The translations under genes and the position numbers were made by a program. Positions 3,547 through 63,854 of a DNA stretch of 64,000 nt are shown here, piece by piece. Numbering within the stretch: position 1 is the stretch's first letter; every line of letters begins with the position of its first letter. This stretch comes from a virus. Under the pieces are notes generated by a model. That model saw nothing but the letters and a program-made list of their open reading frames with translations, did no database searches and was not told the origin of the DNA. The DNA is taken from the IMG/VR virus record IMGVR_UViG_3300021519_001244, positions 1 to 64,000 of that record, one strand, 5' to 3'.

Positions 3547-3779
3547 GTAAACTTTATCTGACCCGACGTAATTTGCTGACACTACTGTCGAAGCTTGACC
3601 GCAAGAAAGCAGGCGATGATACCGCTTGCACTATCGTCAAGTATAAAAACCCACAAAAAGAGTTTCAACAAACAATGAACTCTTGCGCCATTACAGCCGT
3701 AGAAGACGATGAATATTATACTGCACTCAACCGTCATGCTGGAGAAGTACACCCACTTGACGAAATGAAACTTGGATAA
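3543..3779 (+). CDS. small hypothetical protein, 78 aa
   Basis: A soluble 78-aa protein with a basic N-terminal third, translationally coupled to the genes on both sides (ATGA before, one-base overlap after). The ending VHPLDEMKLG and the pattern RRNLLTLLSKLDR near residues 8-20 are consistent with a small conserved phage protein, but I do not recognise a family. Confidence 0.6.
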   Translation: MSKLYLTRRNLLTLLSKLDRKKAGDDTACTIVKYKNPQKEFQQTMNSCAITAVEDDEYYTALNRHAGEVHPLDEMKLG

Positions 3780-5089
3780 TGCTATCAAAGTCATTTTGCT
3801 CCAGCCCGTGGTATCATATACGTCTAACATATAATGGTGATTTCAGCGAATGCCGTTGGTACAAGGATGAAAAGCCCCGCCCCATAAACATAGAAAAAAC
3901 ATCTATGTTGGAGTTTTATAATAGCGATCGTATGCGGCAATTGCGATCAGCATTGCTTAATGGCCAAAGTGCGCCTGGTTGTGCCAGTTGCTATTACGAA
4001 GATGAGTTTGGGAAGTTAAGCGGTCGTACTAGACAGCTACTTAAGAGCGGTGTTCAAGTTGACGATTTTGATCGAACTATGCGTAGTAGTCCGCACTACC
4101 AACGATTCCTTCACAGCTATCAAAATTTAGGTCATGGAGATTACCATCCTGTTGACTTGCAAATAGATCTCGGTAACGTATGTAACAGCGCCTGTATAAT
4201 GTGTGACCCAGTATCCAGTAGTCGGTTGCATACAGACTATATAAAATTGCATAAAATCAATTCTACACTATTTGAAAACCCATCTAAGTATACATCGTGG
4301 ACGCAAAATCCAGATACTCTTGAACGCTTTATTGCAGAGTTAATTGCAATACCCAATCTCAAATATATACATTTCCTTGGTGGTGAAACCCTTTACGATG
4401 AAGCATTCTACACTATTTGCGATCGTCTTGTTGCCTCGGGTATATCTAAGAATATTATTATAGGGACCACTACAAACGGCACCATACACAATAATCGTAT
4501 AGACAATTTAATTTCCCAGTTTAAAGAATTCCATTTGGGTATCAGTATAGAAGCAGTTTCAAGTCTAAATGACTATGTACGTTATCCAGGCAAGATTGAT
4601 CCAATACTAAGCAACATAGATAAATTTTTAGCATTGCGTAGTTCAACAGGACTTTACGTGTCCCTACGCATAACCCCAAATATTTTTACTATATCGGAAA
4701 TAGACCAATTGTTTGAATACATGATTGAAAAGAACGTTATTGCCGAGAGCTGTAACATTCTGTTCAAGCCCGAGTGTTTGCGAATCGAACTTTTACCGGA
4801 AAGTATTCGCCAACAAACTATAGACAAATTGGACCAATTGATTGTAAAATACAAACTTACTAAAACAAGTGACAATAATATACGCAAAGCAGATGCAATA
4901 GCAGACGTGATTGGTAATGTGGTCATTGACTATCAGCAATTCCTTACTACCTATGCCATACCAAAAAACGTAGATATACTTAGACAACAATTAGTGATAT
5001 TTTTAAAGAGCTTTGAGTCCCTTAGAAATAATTCAATATTAGATCATGCCCCAAACTACACAGAATTTCTTAGACATTACGGATACTAG
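3779..5089 (+). CDS. twitch-type radical SAM enzyme
   Basis: 436 aa. The radical SAM motif CxxxCxxC is at Cys135, Cys139 and Cys142 (CNSACIMC). Four further cysteines in the first 71 residues (Cys7, Cys25, Cys68, Cys71; FCSSPWYHI...CASC) form an N-terminal SPASM/twitch-like auxiliary cluster site, an arrangement known from radical SAM proteins of large phages. LGGETL near residue 200 corresponds to the GGE SAM-binding motif. Substrate unknown. The gene overlaps by 44 bases a small protein (5046-5435) and lies upstream of the fibre, so modification of a virion or small peptide substrate is a reasonable inference. Confidence 0.85.
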   Translation: MLSKSFCSSPWYHIRLTYNGDFSECRWYKDEKPRPINIEKTSMLEFYNSDRMRQLRSALLNGQSAPGCASCYYEDEFGKLSGRTRQLLKSGVQVDDFDRTMRSSPHYQRFLHSYQNLGHGDYHPVDLQIDLGNVCNSACIMCDPVSSSRLHTDYIKLHKINSTLFENPSKYTSWTQNPDTLERFIAELIAIPNLKYIHFLGGETLYDEAFYTICDRLVASGISKNIIIGTTTNGTIHNNRIDNLISQFKEFHLGISIEAVSSLNDYVRYPGKIDPILSNIDKFLALRSSTGLYVSLRITPNIFTISEIDQLFEYMIEKNVIAESCNILFKPECLRIELLPESIRQQTIDKLDQLIVKYKLTKTSDNNIRKADAIADVIGNVVIDYQQFLTTYAIPKNVDILRQQLVIFLKSFESLRNNSILDHAPNYTEFLRHYGY

Positions 5090-56200: not shown

Positions 56201-56923
56201 ATGAAGAAATTACTATTAGCAGTATTATTGGTCACTGGTATTACTACAGCCCAAGCACAGGTATCAGGCAATTTAGGATTAACAAGTGACTATCGTTTCC
56301 GCGGTATTAGCCAAAGTCAAAATGCACCAGCAGTACAAGGTGGTGTTGATTACGCTCACTCAAGCGGTTTCTATGTTGGTAACTGGAACAGTTCAGTAAG
56401 CTCATCTGTTCACACAAACGGTTCTGGCGTTGAGAGCGATCTCTATGCTGGTTGGAAGAAAGATATTTACAAGGGCCTGACTCTTGATGTTGGTTCTTAT
56501 AACTATTTTTACCCACGTGCTACCGCTGCAAGCACAGGCTCAAACTTTGACACATACGAAGGTTTTGCAGGTCTAGGTTATGGTCCGGTTAGCGTTAAGT
56601 ACAGCCGTACACTAGGTAATGGTTATTTTGGTACAGCTAATGCTCAAGGTACACAATACTACCAAGCTGATGTAAACTATCCAATCGCTGGATCAAAGAT
56701 TAGTTTGCTTGCTCACGCAGGTAAGACTAATGTTGCGAATCAAAGCACAGGTGATTACAACGATTATAACTTTGGCGTTGGTTACGACTTAAAGGGCTGG
56801 AATTTAGCCGCTAAGTATTACACAAACACATCGTTAACAACTGCCGCTAAAACAGCAAATACAATCAATAGTCAAAAATTGTATAAGAATGCCGCTGTAT
56901 TATCAGTAAGCAAATCATTCTAA
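56201..56923 (+). CDS. TorF-family outer-membrane porin-like protein
   Basis: 240 aa with signal peptide ending AQA-QV. Starts mature part VSGNLGLTSDYRFRGISQSQNAPAVQGGVDYAHSSGFYVGNW, the signature of the TorF (Gcw_chp) family common in Betaproteobacteria. Ends with an outer-membrane C-terminus (VSKSF). A beta barrel. In a phage it might replace or mask the host receptor, or help uptake. AAAAGGA ribosome site. Confidence 0.82.
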   Translation: MKKLLLAVLLVTGITTAQAQVSGNLGLTSDYRFRGISQSQNAPAVQGGVDYAHSSGFYVGNWNSSVSSSVHTNGSGVESDLYAGWKKDIYKGLTLDVGSYNYFYPRATAASTGSNFDTYEGFAGLGYGPVSVKYSRTLGNGYFGTANAQGTQYYQADVNYPIAGSKISLLAHAGKTNVANQSTGDYNDYNFGVGYDLKGWNLAAKYYTNTSLTTAAKTANTINSQKLYKNAAVLSVSKSF

Positions 56924-56943: not shown

Positions 56944-56968
56944 AAAAGCCCACTTTGGTGGGCTTTTT
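56944..56968 (+). terminator. intrinsic terminator after porin gene
   Basis: AAAAGCCCAC and GTGGGCTTTTT form a perfect stem with a TTTG loop. The hairpin core is repeated at 62867-62894 after the tmRNA. Confidence 0.9.
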
Positions 56969-57006
56969 CTTGACTTTTGATTACAGCATAGCGTATACTG
57001 AGTAGG

Positions 57007-57014
57007 TATAAATA
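57007..57014 (+). promoter_or_regulatory. T4-late-like promoter of the modification cluster
   Basis: TATAAATA, an exact match to the T4 late consensus, 24 bases before the ATG at 57038. It follows a terminator directly and so likely drives 57038-62209. Confidence 0.6.
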
Positions 57015-57037: not shown

Positions 57038-57712
57038 ATGACCTTACCAGTAAGCGGAGCAATTAGCCTTAGCCAAGTTTCAGTTGAAGTAGGACAAGCA
57101 TCTACTTATTCTGCATCATTAAACTGGGTTAAATCTATAACCAAAGATAGTGTTAGCAATATGAATGCATTGCATGGTCGTTCGTACTATCAAAGTTCCA
57201 TGGATGGCAACTGTAACAATGGTAATTGCGACTCAGCTGTTGGCGGCGGCAATATAAATTGTGTAAATTGTAGTTTAACTACAGTTAATTGTGCAAATTG
57301 CGACGCCCAATCATGGTTGCAAGCTGGTACAAACTGCGCCTGTACTTATAACTGCGATCAGCACACAGATCAAGCGTACAACTGTAACTGCAATTGTAAT
57401 TGTAATTGTGCATGTTTTTGGTCTGATGATACGCTTAAAGATCGCCAAGGCGAAATTGTTAATGCGTTGGATATCATTTGCGAATTAACAGGGTTTTATT
57501 ATACTGGTAATAATAAAGCAAGACAACTTGGCCTAAATCCAAAACTTGATGTTGGAGTTAGTGCCCAAGATATAGAACGAGTGTTCCCTGTGGCGGCTGG
57601 CGACCCATTACCGGGAAGTGGTGTAAAAACTGTACGATATGAACGTTTAGTTCCGTTACTGCTCGAAGCTGTAAAATCATTAAATCAAAAAATTGATCAA
57701 CTCAAAAAATAA
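57038..57712 (+). CDS. Asn-Cys-rich virion protein with S74 chaperone-like end
   Basis: 224 aa. The N-terminus (MTLPVSGAISLSQVSVEVGQ) is of phage tail-fibre or baseplate type. Residues 58-126 contain 15 cysteines, 13 of them directly preceded by Asn, ending in NCNCNCNCNCAC (115-126). Residues 128-224 are an intramolecular chaperone-like S74 domain (SDDTLKDRQGEIVNALDII...VGVSAQDIERVFP), usually auto-cleaved after trimer formation. The Cys-rich part is a plausible substrate for the radical SAM enzyme encoded nine bases downstream. Such Asn-Cys density is not explained by ordinary fibre folding. Confidence 0.82.
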   Translation: MTLPVSGAISLSQVSVEVGQASTYSASLNWVKSITKDSVSNMNALHGRSYYQSSMDGNCNNGNCDSAVGGGNINCVNCSLTTVNCANCDAQSWLQAGTNCACTYNCDQHTDQAYNCNCNCNCNCACFWSDDTLKDRQGEIVNALDIICELTGFYYTGNNKARQLGLNPKLDVGVSAQDIERVFPVAAGDPLPGSGVKTVRYERLVPLLLEAVKSLNQKIDQLKK

Positions 57713-57720
57713 GGCCCAAT

Positions 57721-59166
57721 ATGCTGTTTGAAGTTCATGCTGAACGAAACTCTGAAGACAAAAAAATATTTTATTATGATAACGAAACAAATACGTTGTC
57801 TGATGCTAACAATAATATATTCGAATACCCCGTTGAACAAATTATAAACAAAGAACTTGATATTGTAACTAGAGCATTTTCTAAAGAAGATCCGTTACGT
57901 AAGTCCACTAAAATTAGTACGTTAAAGATTCAAATGGGTTTGTCTTGCAATTATTCGTGCGACTATTGTTCGCAAAAGTTTGTTGAACGGCCTCCAGAAA
58001 CAAATAGAAAAGACATTGATGATTTCTTGGCAAAATTGGAAGTGTTGGAATTTAACGAAGCCACTGGATTAAAGATTGAATTTTGGGGAGGTGAGCCATT
58101 TGTATATTGGAAAACTCTCAAACCATTGGCTGAAGCGTTAGTTGAAAAATTTAGCACATGGAAAACAAAGCCGAGACTAAGTGTCATAACAAACGGATCG
58201 TTGTTAACCAGAGAAATTTGCTCGTGGTTGTACTATATGGGATTCAGTGTAGGCATTAGTCACGACGGGCCGGGGCAAAGTGTACGTGGACCTGATCCTT
58301 TCTTAGATCCTGAGAAGAAAAAAATAGTATTAGAGTTTTATAACATTATGCGACAAGTTAATCGCATAAGTTTTAACTCAATGTTGAATAATAAAAATAC
58401 CAGTCGAAAAGCCGTATACGAGTGGTTTGTAGAGTTTACCGGAGACCCAAACGTTGTTGTCGGGGAAGGCTCAATTGTTGATGCATATGACGAAGACGGG
58501 TCAAATAGTTCACTAGATACACTAAACGAACATTTTGCATACAGACAGTTATCATTTAATGATATGTATTCTACAAATGGCCAAATTGGGTTTATAAATA
58601 TCAAAGACAAAGTCAATGGGTTTGTGCGTAGCGTATTGACGCACAAAAAATCAGAAGGGCTAGGCCAGAAGTGCGGCATGGACGATGAGCATACTATTGC
58701 CATAGATCTTAAGGGCAATGTTGTCACTTGCCAAAATGTTAGTGTAATGGAAACCAGTAAGAATGGTGAAAGCCACCTAGGTGGCAACTTAGCTGAGTAT
58801 GATGCAGTAGAACTTAAATCTGTTACGCATTGGAAAAATAGAGCAAACTGTTCTGGTTGTCCAGTACTGCATCTGTGCAAAGGCGCATGTATGTATCTAG
58901 ACGGCAAGTACTGGGACATCACTTGTAATAATGCTTACTCCGACAACATTCCATTATTTGCCTTGGGCTTTGAAAAAATTACCGGATACATTCCAACACT
59001 AATTAAAGGTGACGGACTTCCGCTAGAGCGCCAAGATATATGGGGTACCATATATGAGCATAAAGAAAAAGCTAAAAAGAAACTGATACCCATTAAAGTT
59101 GTAAATGAAAAGATTGCTGTCATTGACGACGTGGAAGTATACGGGCAGTCAAGAATAGGAGAATAA
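57721..59166 (+). CDS. SPASM-domain radical SAM enzyme (peptide-modifying type)
   Basis: 481 aa. CxxxCxxC at Cys76, Cys80 and Cys83 (CNYSCDYC) binds the radical SAM cluster; FWGGEPF follows. The C-terminal SPASM part (about residues 320-410) has cysteines in KCGMDD, VVTCQN and CSGCPVLHLCKGAC plus TCNNAY, the sites for auxiliary iron-sulphur clusters. This is the plan of enzymes that make thioether or carbon links in peptides and of sulfatase-maturing enzymes. Residues 1-65 could be a recognition domain. With the Asn-Cys protein next door, crosslinking or modification at Cys or Asn is the leading hypothesis. Confidence 0.85.
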   Translation: MLFEVHAERNSEDKKIFYYDNETNTLSDANNNIFEYPVEQIINKELDIVTRAFSKEDPLRKSTKISTLKIQMGLSCNYSCDYCSQKFVERPPETNRKDIDDFLAKLEVLEFNEATGLKIEFWGGEPFVYWKTLKPLAEALVEKFSTWKTKPRLSVITNGSLLTREICSWLYYMGFSVGISHDGPGQSVRGPDPFLDPEKKKIVLEFYNIMRQVNRISFNSMLNNKNTSRKAVYEWFVEFTGDPNVVVGEGSIVDAYDEDGSNSSLDTLNEHFAYRQLSFNDMYSTNGQIGFINIKDKVNGFVRSVLTHKKSEGLGQKCGMDDEHTIAIDLKGNVVTCQNVSVMETSKNGESHLGGNLAEYDAVELKSVTHWKNRANCSGCPVLHLCKGACMYLDGKYWDITCNNAYSDNIPLFALGFEKITGYIPTLIKGDGLPLERQDIWGTIYEHKEKAKKKLIPIKVVNEKIAVIDDVEVYGQSRIGE

Positions 59167-59168
59167 CA

Positions 59169-59822
59169 ATGTGGACCACAACGTTAAAATTAGAAGAATT
59201 TATAAACACATCTAAGAAACATGCCGAGATAGTTAATATTACTGCACAGGCGCCCACAGACTTAATGTTGGCCCAAATTTCTGATGCGTATACTTTTGCC
59301 GAGATCCCGACACATTTTACATTTACCGTCAAAGACTCCGATGGAGTATCACGTGAATTAAGCATACTAGTTCCAAGTGAGGTTTGGCAAAAGATGGAAA
59401 TACCCGTTACGGAATTAGTCAAGGCCGCTAATAGATTTAAAGTTGCCCCAATTATATACACACATTTTATAAGACCCGATATCGTTGATGGTTGTGAATT
59501 ATATGGATGCCTTATTAATCCAATGCTCGCCCCTCCGGAGCCACTTGCAAAATTACTCAATGAACTAAAAGTTTTACCCCGTGTTATAGATGCAAAAGCC
59601 TTTAATATAGTGGACCCGGCTCAGTTAGCGGCTGCTGGGTGTAATGAGGCTGTGCGAATTTTCCTTGAACTGGATATTATTACCGAAGCCAGGCTAGATC
59701 AATACGATGATAGTATATTTGATCGTCATGATTTCTTAGTTCCAAGTATTGGTTATATGAGCGAAGAAGCGCACGAGCATATTATTAATACCGCAAAAGA
59801 ATATTTAAATAATATAAAATAA
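59169..59822 (+). CDS. hypothetical protein of the modification cluster, 217 aa
   Basis: GGAG about seven bases before the ATG, which follows the radical SAM stop directly. The sequence (ITAQAPTDLMLAQISDAYTFAEIPTHFTFTVKDSDGVSRELSIL...) is mixed alpha/beta with no recognised domain. Its position suggests a chaperone, substrate-binding or second substrate protein for the cluster. Overlap with the next gene is nearly zero. Confidence 0.6.
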   Translation: MWTTTLKLEEFINTSKKHAEIVNITAQAPTDLMLAQISDAYTFAEIPTHFTFTVKDSDGVSRELSILVPSEVWQKMEIPVTELVKAANRFKVAPIIYTHFIRPDIVDGCELYGCLINPMLAPPEPLAKLLNELKVLPRVIDAKAFNIVDPAQLAAAGCNEAVRIFLELDIITEARLDQYDDSIFDRHDFLVPSIGYMSEEAHEHIINTAKEYLNNIK

Positions 59823-60449
59823 ATGATCAAACAGTTAAACAATTTGTTTAGCACACCGTTTTGGACCTTTGACTTTCATAAAGACAATCCACAATTGGCT
59901 AAAACCGTCCAGATGGATGGACTTACCTTTAGTAAATATGTTACAGACAAAAAAGCCAAAAACGAAACACCTACAAATATTCGTTATGATTTCTTTAATC
60001 ACATTGGGTACGGTATCAGTGGACTACGCGAGAACACAACAAACGCAATAATCGAAGTTGCAAAAGATCAACAGTGGACAGACTACACAGTTGATATACG
60101 TGCCAGACAAAATGTAATTTTCCCGGGACAATGCGATACCCCTCATCATCATCAAGGATTAGATTTAATTGGTGTGTATTACGTTACTGTTCCAGAAAAT
60201 AGTGGTGACATATTGTTATTTGAAACCAGGGGCAGTATTAACCGTTTATGGGAAGATCCAATGGTAACTCCCGATTCGATGGGCCGCACAGGCAGAGTTT
60301 ATTACAGGCATAAGCCACAAGTTGGTACATTGATAATGTTCCCTAGTTATCTATTCCATGCAGTTGAAACAAATTTAAGCAACGAAAATAGAATTTCTAT
60401 TGTGATGGATATACGGATAAACAAGGAATACGACGACGTATATGTTTAA
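59823..60449 (+). CDS. 2OG-Fe(II) oxygenase, TIGR02466-like
   Basis: 208 aa. Iron ligands: HHH at residues 108-110 (CDTPHHHQGLDLIGVYYV), His179 (FPSYLFHAVE) and Arg190 for 2-oxoglutarate (NRISIVMDIRI). This is the pattern of the putative 2OG-Fe(II) oxygenase family with PHxHxGxxLSGVYY. It could hydroxylate amino acids in the virion protein. No ribosome site is obvious; likely coupled translation with the preceding gene. Overlaps the halogenase by 8 bases. Confidence 0.78.
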   Translation: MIKQLNNLFSTPFWTFDFHKDNPQLAKTVQMDGLTFSKYVTDKKAKNETPTNIRYDFFNHIGYGISGLRENTTNAIIEVAKDQQWTDYTVDIRARQNVIFPGQCDTPHHHQGLDLIGVYYVTVPENSGDILLFETRGSINRLWEDPMVTPDSMGRTGRVYYRHKPQVGTLIMFPSYLFHAVETNLSNENRISIVMDIRINKEYDDVYV

Positions 60450-61596
60450 ATATGTAATAGTCGGGGGCGGAACTGCAGGTTGGTTAACTGCGCTATTTGT
60501 CAAAGAAAAATTCCCATACAGCGACGTCACAGTAATAGCAAGCTCTGAAATTGGCATACTTGGTGCTGGTGAAGGGACTACCCCACCGTTCATAAACTTT
60601 TTAGCAAAAATAAAAATTAACCCAGACGAAATTATATCCAACTGCCTTGGTACAGTAAAGACTGGCATTAAGTTTACTAACTGGTGTGGCGACACCAAAC
60701 ACTATTATCACAACTTCTTAGCCGACACACGGCAAGGAGACTCGGCTCTGCACTTTGATGCAAACTTGTTGGCAAAGTATTTGCAAACAGTTGGAATTAA
60801 ACGTGGTATTAAACTAGTTGATAACGAAGTAACTGATGTATGTGCCGACTCCAATAACAATATAACAAGTCTTATACTTAAAGATAAAACGTCTATAGAC
60901 CTAGACTTTGTATTTGATTGCTCGGGCTTTCGACGATTAATAATTGGCAAGCATTATAACGCTAAATGGACATCGTACAAAAAAATATTACCCGTCGACC
61001 GTGCTATGCCATTCTTTCTTCAAAACGATAATACCAACCTTCCTGTATATACAGAAGCGATAGCACTTAGACATGGATGGATGTGGAAGATACCAGTACA
61101 AGGAAGATACGGATGTGGTTACGTGTTTGATAGCGGTCGTGCCACAGACAGCGAAATTAAAGAAGAAATAGAAGAACATCTAGGACACGAGATTGTTAGT
61201 CCACGTATGTTTAGTTTTGATGCTGGATGCTTTGAAGATACCTGGATTAACAATTGCGTGGCAATTGGATTAAGTTCGGGATTTTCAGAACCACTTGAAG
61301 CCACTAGCATATGGGTACAAACAACTAGTCTGACTTTCTTGCTTAAAAATATCAACGGAATAATACTAACAGACACTGATGCAAAGCGTAGATACAACGA
61401 TGCTGTAAAAACTATGAATTTAGAAATAGCAAAATTTTTACATTTTCATTATCTAACTAACAGACAGGATAGTGATTTCTGGAGAAGTTTTGAAGTACCA
61501 AATGTATTTAATATGCATAGCAGCGGAGAACTACTCACGTTTGCAGAATACAATTGGGAAACAATACAAAAAGGGATTGGATATGGTAACCGTTGA
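60442..61596 (+). CDS. flavin-dependent (tryptophan-type) halogenase
   Basis: 384 aa. FAD motif VGGGTAGWL at residues 7-15; GEGTTP follows; Lys73 in GTVKTGIKFTNW aligns with the catalytic Lys of tryptophan halogenases; WMWKIP near residue 212 is the WxWxIP motif that blocks monooxygenase activity. FEPLEATSIW occurs near the C-terminal third. Length is shorter than tryptophan halogenases (about 520 aa), so the substrate may be large, such as a protein side chain. Phage halogenases have been described for cyanophages. It would chlorinate or brominate an aromatic ring. Confidence 0.88.
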   Translation: MFKYVIVGGGTAGWLTALFVKEKFPYSDVTVIASSEIGILGAGEGTTPPFINFLAKIKINPDEIISNCLGTVKTGIKFTNWCGDTKHYYHNFLADTRQGDSALHFDANLLAKYLQTVGIKRGIKLVDNEVTDVCADSNNNITSLILKDKTSIDLDFVFDCSGFRRLIIGKHYNAKWTSYKKILPVDRAMPFFLQNDNTNLPVYTEAIALRHGWMWKIPVQGRYGCGYVFDSGRATDSEIKEEIEEHLGHEIVSPRMFSFDAGCFEDTWINNCVAIGLSSGFSEPLEATSIWVQTTSLTFLLKNINGIILTDTDAKRRYNDAVKTMNLEIAKFLHFHYLTNRQDSDFWRSFEVPNVFNMHSSGELLTFAEYNWETIQKGIGYGNR

Positions 61597-62209
61597 TGCG
61601 TTTGGACATTGTATAGTTTTATCACATTGTGATAATAGTGACTACTATATCAACGATGATGTTATATCCGCAGTAGATAAAATTTTTGCATTACCCGAAG
61701 TACAGAATAGAGAGCGCGGCGCAGACTGGGATAGCCACCATGGAGAAGGCGAAACATCTGAGGTTAATCCTTATCTTGGACCAGCACATATACCGGGTGC
61801 AAGTAAGTTAGTACAATGGATTAAGTCCAGTTGTATTCGTGCATTGTCCGCATACAATATTACAGGAAACGACGTTGAAATCACGCGGTCTTGGATGAAT
61901 CGAATGAACCAAGGTAGCCAAGGTAGATGTCATATACATACAGGAAAGGATATTTTAGGCCTAGAAGAATCACCGGACCTTGTTGCTATTTTTTATGTAA
62001 ACAACCCAGACAACGGGTCAAAGTTAGTAATAGTCAAAGATGGTATCGCTGGTACATTGCCATCGGATATGCCAGAATCAGACAAAATATACATAACGCC
62101 ATCAACCGGAGATTTAATCATACATCGCCCAGATGTATGGCATGCTGTCAGTGAGCATAAAAATCCGGACCCTAGAATTTGTTTTGTGTTCCAATTACGC
62201 AAAATATGA
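61583..62209 (+). CDS. 2OG-Fe(II) oxygenase-like protein, second copy
   Basis: 208 aa from 61583, which overlaps the halogenase by 14 bases; an upstream in-frame ATG at 61472 would overlap by more than 100 bases and adds non-homologous residues. The iron pattern is HIH at 117-119 (GRCHIHTG), then His187 (RPDVWHAVS) and Arg198 (PRICFVFQL), the same superfamily as 59823. The start ([16 protein letters not shown]) is divergent. Could act on a second site of the same substrate. Confidence 0.72.
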
Positions 62210-62306: not shown

Positions 62307-62510
62307 ATGGCAACAGGTAAAGTTAAGTGGTTTAATGATGCAAAAGGTTTTGGATTTATTACACCTGATGGTGGTGGTGAAGATTTGTTTGCACATTTCT
62401 CAGCAATCAACAGCAGTGGATTTAAGTCACTGAAAGAAAATCAGCAAGTTACGTTTGATGTAACACAAGGCCCAAAAGGCAAACAAGCGTCAAATATTCA
62501 ACCTCAGTAA
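62307..62510 (+). CDS. CspA-type cold-shock protein
   Basis: 67 aa with RNP1 KGFGFI and RNP2 DLFAHF, the canonical single-stranded nucleic-acid-binding motifs. Starts [14 protein letters not shown]. Binds RNA and melts structure. In phages it may help translation or protect phage RNAs; here it is next to tmRNA. AAGGAAG ribosome site. The start at 62307 is preferred because homology begins there. Confidence 0.92.
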
Positions 62511-62924: not shown

Positions 62925-63854
62925 ATGGATATTCAACAATACTTTGTAGACAACCAAGATAAACTTGATGTAGATTTTATAAATGCCACCTTAGATAAAA
63001 AGATTGAATGGCTTAATTTTCTGAAAGAATCTGCAGCAATTGATTTATCTCTAGGACATATTATACAGCATAACCACACAGCACGATTAACAATTGAGTT
63101 GGTAAGTCCAGATCTTACTAAAGAATATTTACACGCACATCCATATAGTCAACTATTTGGCACCAGTAGCGTAATTAAACTTGATGATACTTGCCAAATT
63201 GATAATAACACATTATCTGGTGAAAAATTATTTGTTAGCGGGATTGACAGAGCTGGATATCATGTTTTTTGGATGAATCATAATAATAAACAACAAATTG
63301 CCTTTGTTAAAGACCATGCCAATGGCGTATCGCACAATATGAATTATGTACCAATTGGCATGGAAGGCACTACCACAGGACATCTAGTTTTTGATAACGT
63401 AACAGATTTCCAGTTGCTGACTACTACAGCAGATGAACGATTGGCAAAAAGGTTATTTTTTCATAATATTGGATTCAATACGGTCAATCTTGGATTATGT
63501 CGAGCATTACTAGTAGACCTGTTCTTGTTTGTAGAATCAAAAAATATTCCGTTTGAGTTTGAAACTAAAGCCCTAACCCATTCATTGAATGTATATGCAG
63601 ATTTATGGGAATCAAATTTGTATTGTTTACAAACCAACGGGTTTGATAATTATCAATTAAAAAAGATAGCAACAACGTATTCTGAAGGCAAGCGGGTATT
63701 AATGTCAATAATTGAAAAATACTTAATGCTAGGCGACAGCCGTTATACCCAGTATGGGATTGATAGCCAACGGTTTCGTGATGCATTAATCTACGTATCA
63801 CACCGCACTAATTTTTACAATTCGCTGTCTACTGTATATAAACAGGGAAAATAA
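62925..63854 (+). CDS. hypothetical protein, weak acyl-CoA-dehydrogenase resemblance
   Basis: 309 aa. Possible relation to acyl-CoA dehydrogenases: an N-terminal helical part (AIDLSLGHIIQHNHTARL), a beta part with VKDHANGVSHNMNYVPIGMEGTTTGHLVFDNV and a C-terminal helical bundle (LAKRLFFHNIGFNTVNLGLCRALL). Key FAD-binding residues are not clear. Appears leaderless. It could be a catalytically changed member. Low confidence in function. Confidence 0.5.
   Translation: MDIQQYFVDNQDKLDVDFINATLDKKIEWLNFLKESAAIDLSLGHIIQHNHTARLTIELVSPDLTKEYLHAHPYSQLFGTSSVIKLDDTCQIDNNTLSGEKLFVSGIDRAGYHVFWMNHNNKQQIAFVKDHANGVSHNMNYVPIGMEGTTTGHLVFDNVTDFQLLTTTADERLAKRLFFHNIGFNTVNLGLCRALLVDLFLFVESKNIPFEFETKALTHSLNVYADLWESNLYCLQTNGFDNYQLKKIATTYSEGKRVLMSIIEKYLMLGDSRYTQYGIDSQRFRDALIYVSHRTNFYNSLSTVYKQGK

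Follow-up and report, generated by a model that had tools for sequence, protein, structure and literature searches.

The window analysed here is a stretch of viral DNA of 64,000 nucleotides (nt), positions 1 to 64,000 of IMGVR_UViG_3300021519_001244, an IMG/VR virus record of 65.7 kilobases (kb). Six open reading frames (ORFs) on its plus strand, separated by gaps of 8, 2 and 0 nt or overlapping by 8 and 14 nt, encode an Asn-Cys-rich fibre-type protein, a radical S-adenosylmethionine (SAM) enzyme with a SPASM domain, a protein of 217 amino acids (aa), two 2-oxoglutarate (2OG)-Fe(II) oxygenases and a flavin-dependent halogenase. A first-pass annotation had described this compact arrangement and had proposed, from gene adjacency, that the enzymes modify the virion protein. 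The arrangement is confirmed by the ORF coordinates, and the S74, SPASM radical SAM, oxygenase and halogenase assignments made there all exceed curated family cut-offs, which are passed by five of the six proteins, the 217 aa protein being the exception. The central result of our analysis is that the first two genes represent a conserved pair, in which a SPASM radical SAM enzyme accompanies a fibre-type phage protein bearing an Asn-Cys tail. The features of the locus are as follows.

56944..56967, + strand: terminator-like hairpin, upstream of the cluster and after the TorF-type porin gene
56970..56999, + strand: sigma-70-like promoter candidate, TTGACT-18-TATACT, 10 of 12 consensus positions
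57038..57712, + strand: Asn-Cys-rich fibre-type virion protein, 224 aa; Cys block at residues 59-126, S74 from S129
57380..57421, + strand: C-terminal tail NCNCNCNCNCACFW, residues 115-128, proposed radical SAM substrate; W128 is the proposed halogenase site
57422..57709, + strand: S74 intramolecular chaperone with Ser129-Lys134 dyad, predicted to remove itself; PF13884, 29.1 bits
57721..59166, + strand: radical SAM/SPASM enzyme, 481 aa; PF04055, TIGR04085 and motif cysteines
59169..59822, + strand: 217 aa protein of a divergent family, directly 3′ of the enzyme gene; candidate partner or chaperone
59823..60449, + strand: 2OG-Fe(II) oxygenase A, 208 aa; PF13759, 63.1 bits, and TIGR02466, 63.5 bits
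60442..61596, + strand: flavin-dependent halogenase, short form, 384 aa; PF04820, 312 bits; GGGTAGW, WMWKIP and EPLEATS
61583..62209, + strand: 2OG-Fe(II) oxygenase B; PF13759, 34.5 bits; ATG at 61583 a likelier start than the mechanical GTG at 61472

The fibre-type protein and the radical SAM enzyme

The fibre-type protein contains 16 Cys residues and the 13 Asn-Cys pairs counted in the first-pass annotation, which had also correctly recognized its S74 domain. The motif (AAY TGY)2 occurs four times in the window against 0.46 expected, in every case inside this gene, and because the codons of the run are mixed (AAC with AAT, TGC with TGT), the run is a feature of the protein rather than a DNA repeat. 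The S74 domain (PF13884 cut-off, 22 bits) retains the Ser-Lys dyad, with Lys at +5 from Ser. In MyRF, which has an S74-type dyad, cleavage occurs at P586|S587 with K592 as the partner residue (PMC8326128). Because S129 and K134 mirror this arrangement, the window protein is predicted to be cut at W128|S129, which would leave a C-terminus of ...NCNCNCNCNCACFW. This predicted mature tail agrees with relatives whose genes simply end after ...CACACW.

The enzyme encoded 8 nt downstream scores 35.7 bits against Radical_SAM PF04055 (cut-off 29.5) and 34 bits against SPASM TIGR04085 (cut-off 27). Its cluster motif, CNYSCDYC, supplies C76, C80 and C83, and the full seven-Cys SPASM signature is present (C318, C337, C377, C380, C386, C390 and C402, with G332 between C318 and C337), fitting the pattern Cx9-15Gx4C-gap-Cx2Cx5Cx3C-gap-C. 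Both CxxxCxxC and the complete set of SPASM cysteines are invariant in 30 diverse family members. The best profile relatives are PapB, a geopeptide maturase and QhpD-type enzymes; because the window enzyme scores far below the cut-offs of all these families, a reaction cannot be transferred from characterized maturases. Its AlphaFold model, with a predicted local distance difference test (pLDDT) score of 89, matches the anaerobic sulfatase-maturating enzyme (anSME) most closely and also matches the sactipeptide-type enzyme CteB, ChlB, TigE and SuiB, and maturases of Cys-rich peptides also match it by sequence. The family to which it belongs, phrog_1802, is annotated only as "radical SAM domain-containing protein".

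Pairing of the enzyme with Asn-Cys tails

A scan of IMG/VR that used only the radical SAM protein as query recovered 128 relatives, of which 80 were fetched. An Asn-Cys protein is encoded on the same strand in 78 of these 80 viral enzyme loci, mostly adjacent to the enzyme gene or a few kb away; the two remaining loci are L062, whose contig ends within the enzyme gene, and L067. Even beside relatives about 40-45% identical, the neighbouring proteins have short tails such as NCNCNCC, NCNCQCC, NCRNCNC and RWNCNCY. Among 2086 minus-strand ORFs of the same loci, none has four or more alternating Cys residues.

The association also holds when approached from the tail. Searching DNA for (AAY TGY)4 without reference to the enzyme identified at least 119 loci. 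Among the matches listed, 102 are in frame, and the enzyme is found in the locus or record for 87 of these. For runs no more than 20 residues from the C-terminus, the same listed matches place the enzyme on the same contig or record in 84 of 91 cases; the seven without it are fragment records of about 8-24 kb, for several of which the fibre occurs elsewhere accompanied by the enzyme. None of the 17 out-of-frame matches listed has the enzyme. The link between the Cys-rich protein and the enzyme, which had previously been drawn from adjacency at a single locus, is thus supported by co-occurrence in both directions. A tblastn search of a phage collection with a synthetic Cys-run query found nothing, the query probably having been masked as low complexity.

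The pairing extends to very divergent phages, to bacterial genome contigs and to different fibre types. A genome scan yielded 116 enzyme relatives in bacterial contigs, including those of cultured Limnohabitans, Burkholderia paludis MSh1, Paraburkholderia, Thalassobacter, Thalassovita and Nereida. Eighty genome loci were examined together with the isolated Achromobacter phages JWF and 2-1, and in these 82 loci the run is on the enzyme strand in 62 and on the opposite strand in 1. Of the 222 enzyme rows compiled, 201 are paired with an Asn-Cys-type protein, the rest being cut contigs or distant members, and tails accompany enzymes with as little as about 26% identity to that of the window. In JWF and 2-1 the enzyme lies two genes downstream of a fibre-like Asn-Cys protein located among the tail genes, in which the run (NCNCDCNCNCS in JWF) immediately precedes a Hint domain. 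JWF is temperate, as judged from turbid plaques and UV re-induction (PMC3899368).

The composition and position of the tails were compiled from 160 distinct tail contexts. Asn precedes the first run Cys in 141 of the 160, and the other residues between run cysteines are most often N (402), A (111) and D (73). The run ends within 5 residues of the C-terminus in 96 tails and within 20 residues in 115, and other tails precede a further domain: S74 (the window and L002-L004 and L054), Hint (nine loci) or a domain designated "KIIC" (31 loci). S74 is therefore not general among the relatives, most of which have a bare tail, Hint or another C-terminal domain. The N-terminal parts of the carriers also vary, several being annotated as tail fibres; the tails reside on different fibre proteins, and shufflon-type regions occur among these fusions besides S74 and Hint. 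In cyanophage SynMITS9220M01 the KIIC domain stands after Gly-rich and poly-Pro tracts, so that in this architecture the Cys run takes the place held there by other repetitive tracts; in the protein concerned (L286 169-2019), encoded beside the fibre gene, the KIIC domain is preceded by Gly-rich tracts, by more than 30 consecutive prolines and by an Arg run.

Several further observations were made at these loci. Three of them (L088, L129 and L153) encode short proteins of 67-79 aa ending HTHxFxDDYxTACNCNCNCNC..., and with midpoint rooting the enzymes of L088 and L129 branch deepest. Distant bacterial enzyme relatives at L252 and L267 lie directly downstream of ABC-exporter-like genes and possibly belong to free-peptide systems, and L281 has a 62 aa ORF ending ACACACGGPCY at +1767 from another distant relative. 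In 22 of 154 loci the enzyme has a B12-binding radical SAM protein at a distance of about 2.3 kb (e.g., L058 13784-15301). A family of 279 aa proteins without a Pfam match recurs in 68 related loci (e.g., L100 3668-4507); its genes usually lie a short way upstream of that for the enzyme, at a median offset of about 1.4 kb, and its members are possible assembly partners.

Halogenase, oxygenases and genomic setting

The window halogenase scores far above the cut-off of Trp_halogenase PF04820 (21 bits) and has the flavin-dependent Trp halogenase motifs GxGxxGW and WxWxIP. It is shorter than most solved homologues (384 aa vs 497-550 aa) and lacks about 50 residues around position 95. A halogenase is present in 25 of the 154 IMG/VR enzyme loci. 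It is found at all 19 loci in which the mature tail ends in Trp and the downstream sequence is long enough, and it is absent from 118 of the 123 loci without such a tail. The five apparent halogenases at non-Trp tails are not orthologues, three lacking both motifs at 22% identity and two being 32-33% identical and 511-512 aa long, and orthologues with at least 49% identity are confined to loci with Trp-ended tails. The halogenase that the first-pass annotation linked to the tail is thus tied to it in this subset of loci.

The oxygenases (2OG-FeII_Oxy_5 PF13759 cut-off, 27 bits) are more widely distributed, with oxygenase-cluster genes in 89 of the 154 loci. Pelagibacter phage HTVC008M carries a halogenase and oxygenases, and neither an in-frame Asn-Cys tail nor a relative of the radical SAM enzyme was detected in it; an apparent Asn-Cys match in this genome is antisense to a structural gene and was rejected. 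What survives of the six-gene pathway put forward by the first-pass annotation is the pair of enzyme and tail, joined by the halogenase in the Trp-tail subset, and a fixed set of six genes is rejected by HTVC008M and by the loci that lack halogenase or oxygenases.

The 217 aa protein, a candidate partner or chaperone, is one of a divergent family whose genes follow that of the enzyme directly on its 3′ side in 22 other loci. Searches with library profiles gave no family match, a structure search gave no PDB match below E 0.001, and tblastn gave no phage relative. Comparison by hhalign revealed no relation to the other families that occur between fibre and enzyme genes (clusters 3, 32 and 33).

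Of the regulatory elements proposed for the cluster, the TATAAATA box does exist at 57007-57014, but nine copies occur in the window against 9.2 expected, and its interpretation as a late promoter was rejected. Sigma-70-like sites are likewise no more numerous in the window than in shuffled sequence. Terminators had been described on both sides; the upstream hairpin was recovered, and a scan between 62209 and the cold-shock gene at 62307 found none. Genes of cellular type flank the cluster, a TorF-type porin (TIGR02001) at 56201-56923 and the cold-shock protein at 62307-62510, and beyond the latter a protein at 62925-63854 has a weak match, under the Pfam cut-off, to the acyl-CoA dehydrogenase middle domain. 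A second radical SAM protein, encoded at 3779-5089, has a SPASM-like PF13186 domain (residues 7-72) N-terminal to PF04055 (131-293), reversing the usual order. The closest matches of a putative adenylate-cyclase gene in the window are those of Methylophilales phage Melnitz and HTVC008M, at about 37% identity.

A proposed modification of the fibre tip

We consider it likely that these genes direct the maturation of a fibre tip. In this proposal, the phage would make a virion protein of the fibre type that, once mature, ends in a flexible alternating-Cys tail, (Asn/Ala/Asp-Cys)n, and the dedicated SPASM radical SAM enzyme encoded alongside would modify that tail covalently. The reciprocal pairing argues for the tail as the substrate, which we regard as very probable. 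Where a C-terminal domain follows, self-cleavage by S74 or Hint would expose the tail, the cut in the window falling at W128|S129. The most likely chemistry, judging from the class of the enzyme, would join Cys sulfurs to carbons of the intervening residues as thioethers, an assignment that we hold to be somewhat better than evenly supported. PapB needs Asp or Glu acceptors, at CX3D, and the sactipeptide RumC1 has links from Cys3 to Asn16 and from Cys5 to Ala12 (PMC8172795). Because Asn and Ala predominate between the cysteines here, in contrast to the acceptors of PapB-type enzymes, linkage of sulfur to the alpha carbon is slightly favoured. In the clade of the window, the halogenase would probably act on the C-terminal Trp thus exposed, although we put the chances of this at no better than even, and the two oxygenases would be accessory; that they act on the same fibre protein seems doubtful. 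A role of the tail in receptor binding or tip stability is likewise about as likely as not.

Pairs of SPASM maturases and Cys-rich substrates are known from peptide natural products, and the new part is the phage structural substrate. PapB (a ranthipeptide maturase) and QhpD (PeaB) share with the window enzyme a radical SAM and a SPASM domain and act on Cys-rich ribosomal substrates, in the case of QhpD a protein subunit (PMC8172795), but the window enzyme falls far under their family cut-offs and its proposed substrate is a phage fibre-type tail with Asn/Ala in place of the Asp/Glu of PapB. Sactipeptide maturases (CteB-type, RumMC and the thurincin H enzyme) resemble it in the fold of CteB and in the CxC donor and Asn/Ala acceptors of RumC1, whereas their products are secreted peptides and they have no phage structural substrate. 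A flavin halogenase acting on a C-terminal Trp beside a modified Cys run has a precedent in the brominase SrpI, whose target is the C-terminal Trp of SrpE (core LCCCW; PMC10286304); there, however, the Cys residues are modified by a YcaO enzyme and the product is a free peptide rather than part of a virion. S74 endosialidase-type fibres also have a C-terminal self-cleaving chaperone with a Ser-Lys dyad, the difference being that the predicted cut in the window would expose a Cys run. Biosynthesis of ribosomally synthesized and post-translationally modified peptides removes an N-terminal leader and gives a small product; here the proposed substrate is of the fibre type, and removal is predicted for a C-terminal part. 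In the open PubMed Central (PMC) literature we found no paper that connects phage tail fibres with radical SAM maturases, subscription journals lying outside the search.

Other functions can be envisaged for the paired genes. The enzyme might modify the tail by a reaction other than thioether formation, such as Cys oxidation as in formylglycine formation, epimerization or C-C crosslinking, with the tail serving as an adhesin. This is consistent with anSME as the nearest fold match, with the annotation of the JWF copy as an anaerobic sulfatase-maturating enzyme and with weak NCBIfam matches that include cyclophane-forming and other maturases. Because the top sequence matches are instead the thioether-forming PapB and QhpD-type enzymes, and formylglycine chemistry, which involves one Cys, leaves alternating runs of many cysteines unexplained, we judge it unlikely. 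Metal-bearing phage spike and fibre tips are known, and CxC runs are good thiolate ligands, so that the tail could alternatively be a metal- or Fe-S-binding polythiolate tip, with the enzyme aiding cluster assembly or modifying another virion or host target; the full catalytic CxxxCxxC and SPASM set of the enzyme and its almost one-to-one pairing with the tail render this quite improbable. Less probable still is that the Asn-Cys protein is a secreted, bacteriocin-like ribosomal peptide and not part of the virion. Some such proteins are small (about 65-140 aa) without fibre annotation, and a few distant enzyme relatives lie beside ABC exporters, but tail-fibre proteins that have S74, Hint or shufflon-type regions bear such tails as fusions, and the tails of JWF and 2-1 are encoded among tail genes.

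For the halogenase and oxygenases the alternatives are more closely matched. These enzymes might act on a small molecule or on another virion or host protein and occupy the operon for other reasons, a possibility to which we assign a likelihood only a little short of even. The gene content of HTVC008M is in keeping with it, as are the frequency of halogenases in cyanophages, in no record of which was the radical SAM enzyme found, and the presence of the phage halogenase VirX1 among the solved relatives. VirX1 and the cyanophage Trp halogenases are, like that of the window, phage-encoded PF04820 enzymes, but they are about 27-39% identical to it in the listed phage records, and no in-frame Asn-Cys tail was found in HTVC008M, the one such genome checked; close orthologues of the window halogenase occur only with Trp-ended tails.

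Several considerations weigh against the fibre-tip proposal. The enzyme reaches just 73 bits against PapB (NF047865; cut-off 340) and 65 bits against the QhpD-type profile (TIGR03906; cut-off 453). The modified tail is a predicted product whose chemistry is entirely inferred, and incorporation of the Asn-Cys protein into virions is suggested by fibre homology, while some Asn-Cys proteins have no fibre annotation (L009 and L268). A few distant enzyme relatives in bacterial loci have no tail that could be found, some of them beside ABC exporters. Because many of the loci are related, the counts make the evidence look more independent than it is. The link between Trp-ended tails and the halogenase comprises two to three evolutionarily independent contrasts on the tree (p 0.5), and for this reason it is a lead and not proof.

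We regard it as nearly as likely as not that a widespread and previously unrecognized class of phages covalently crosslinks Cys-rich C-terminal fibre tips by means of a dedicated radical SAM enzyme, and that one clade also halogenates the terminal Trp. The pair is amenable to experiment, since the isolates JWF and 2-1 as well as genomes of cultured Limnohabitans, Thalassobacter and Burkholderia strains carry it, and such enzymes could be used to crosslink repetitive Cys tails fused to other proteins. The pairing suggests a likely function for the phrog_1802 radical SAM family and may account for some of the halogenases and 2OG oxygenases that phages carry in puzzling numbers. If the proposal is true, it would represent a new way for viruses to build host-binding tips, in which the radical chemistry of natural-product biosynthesis is applied to a viral structural protein.

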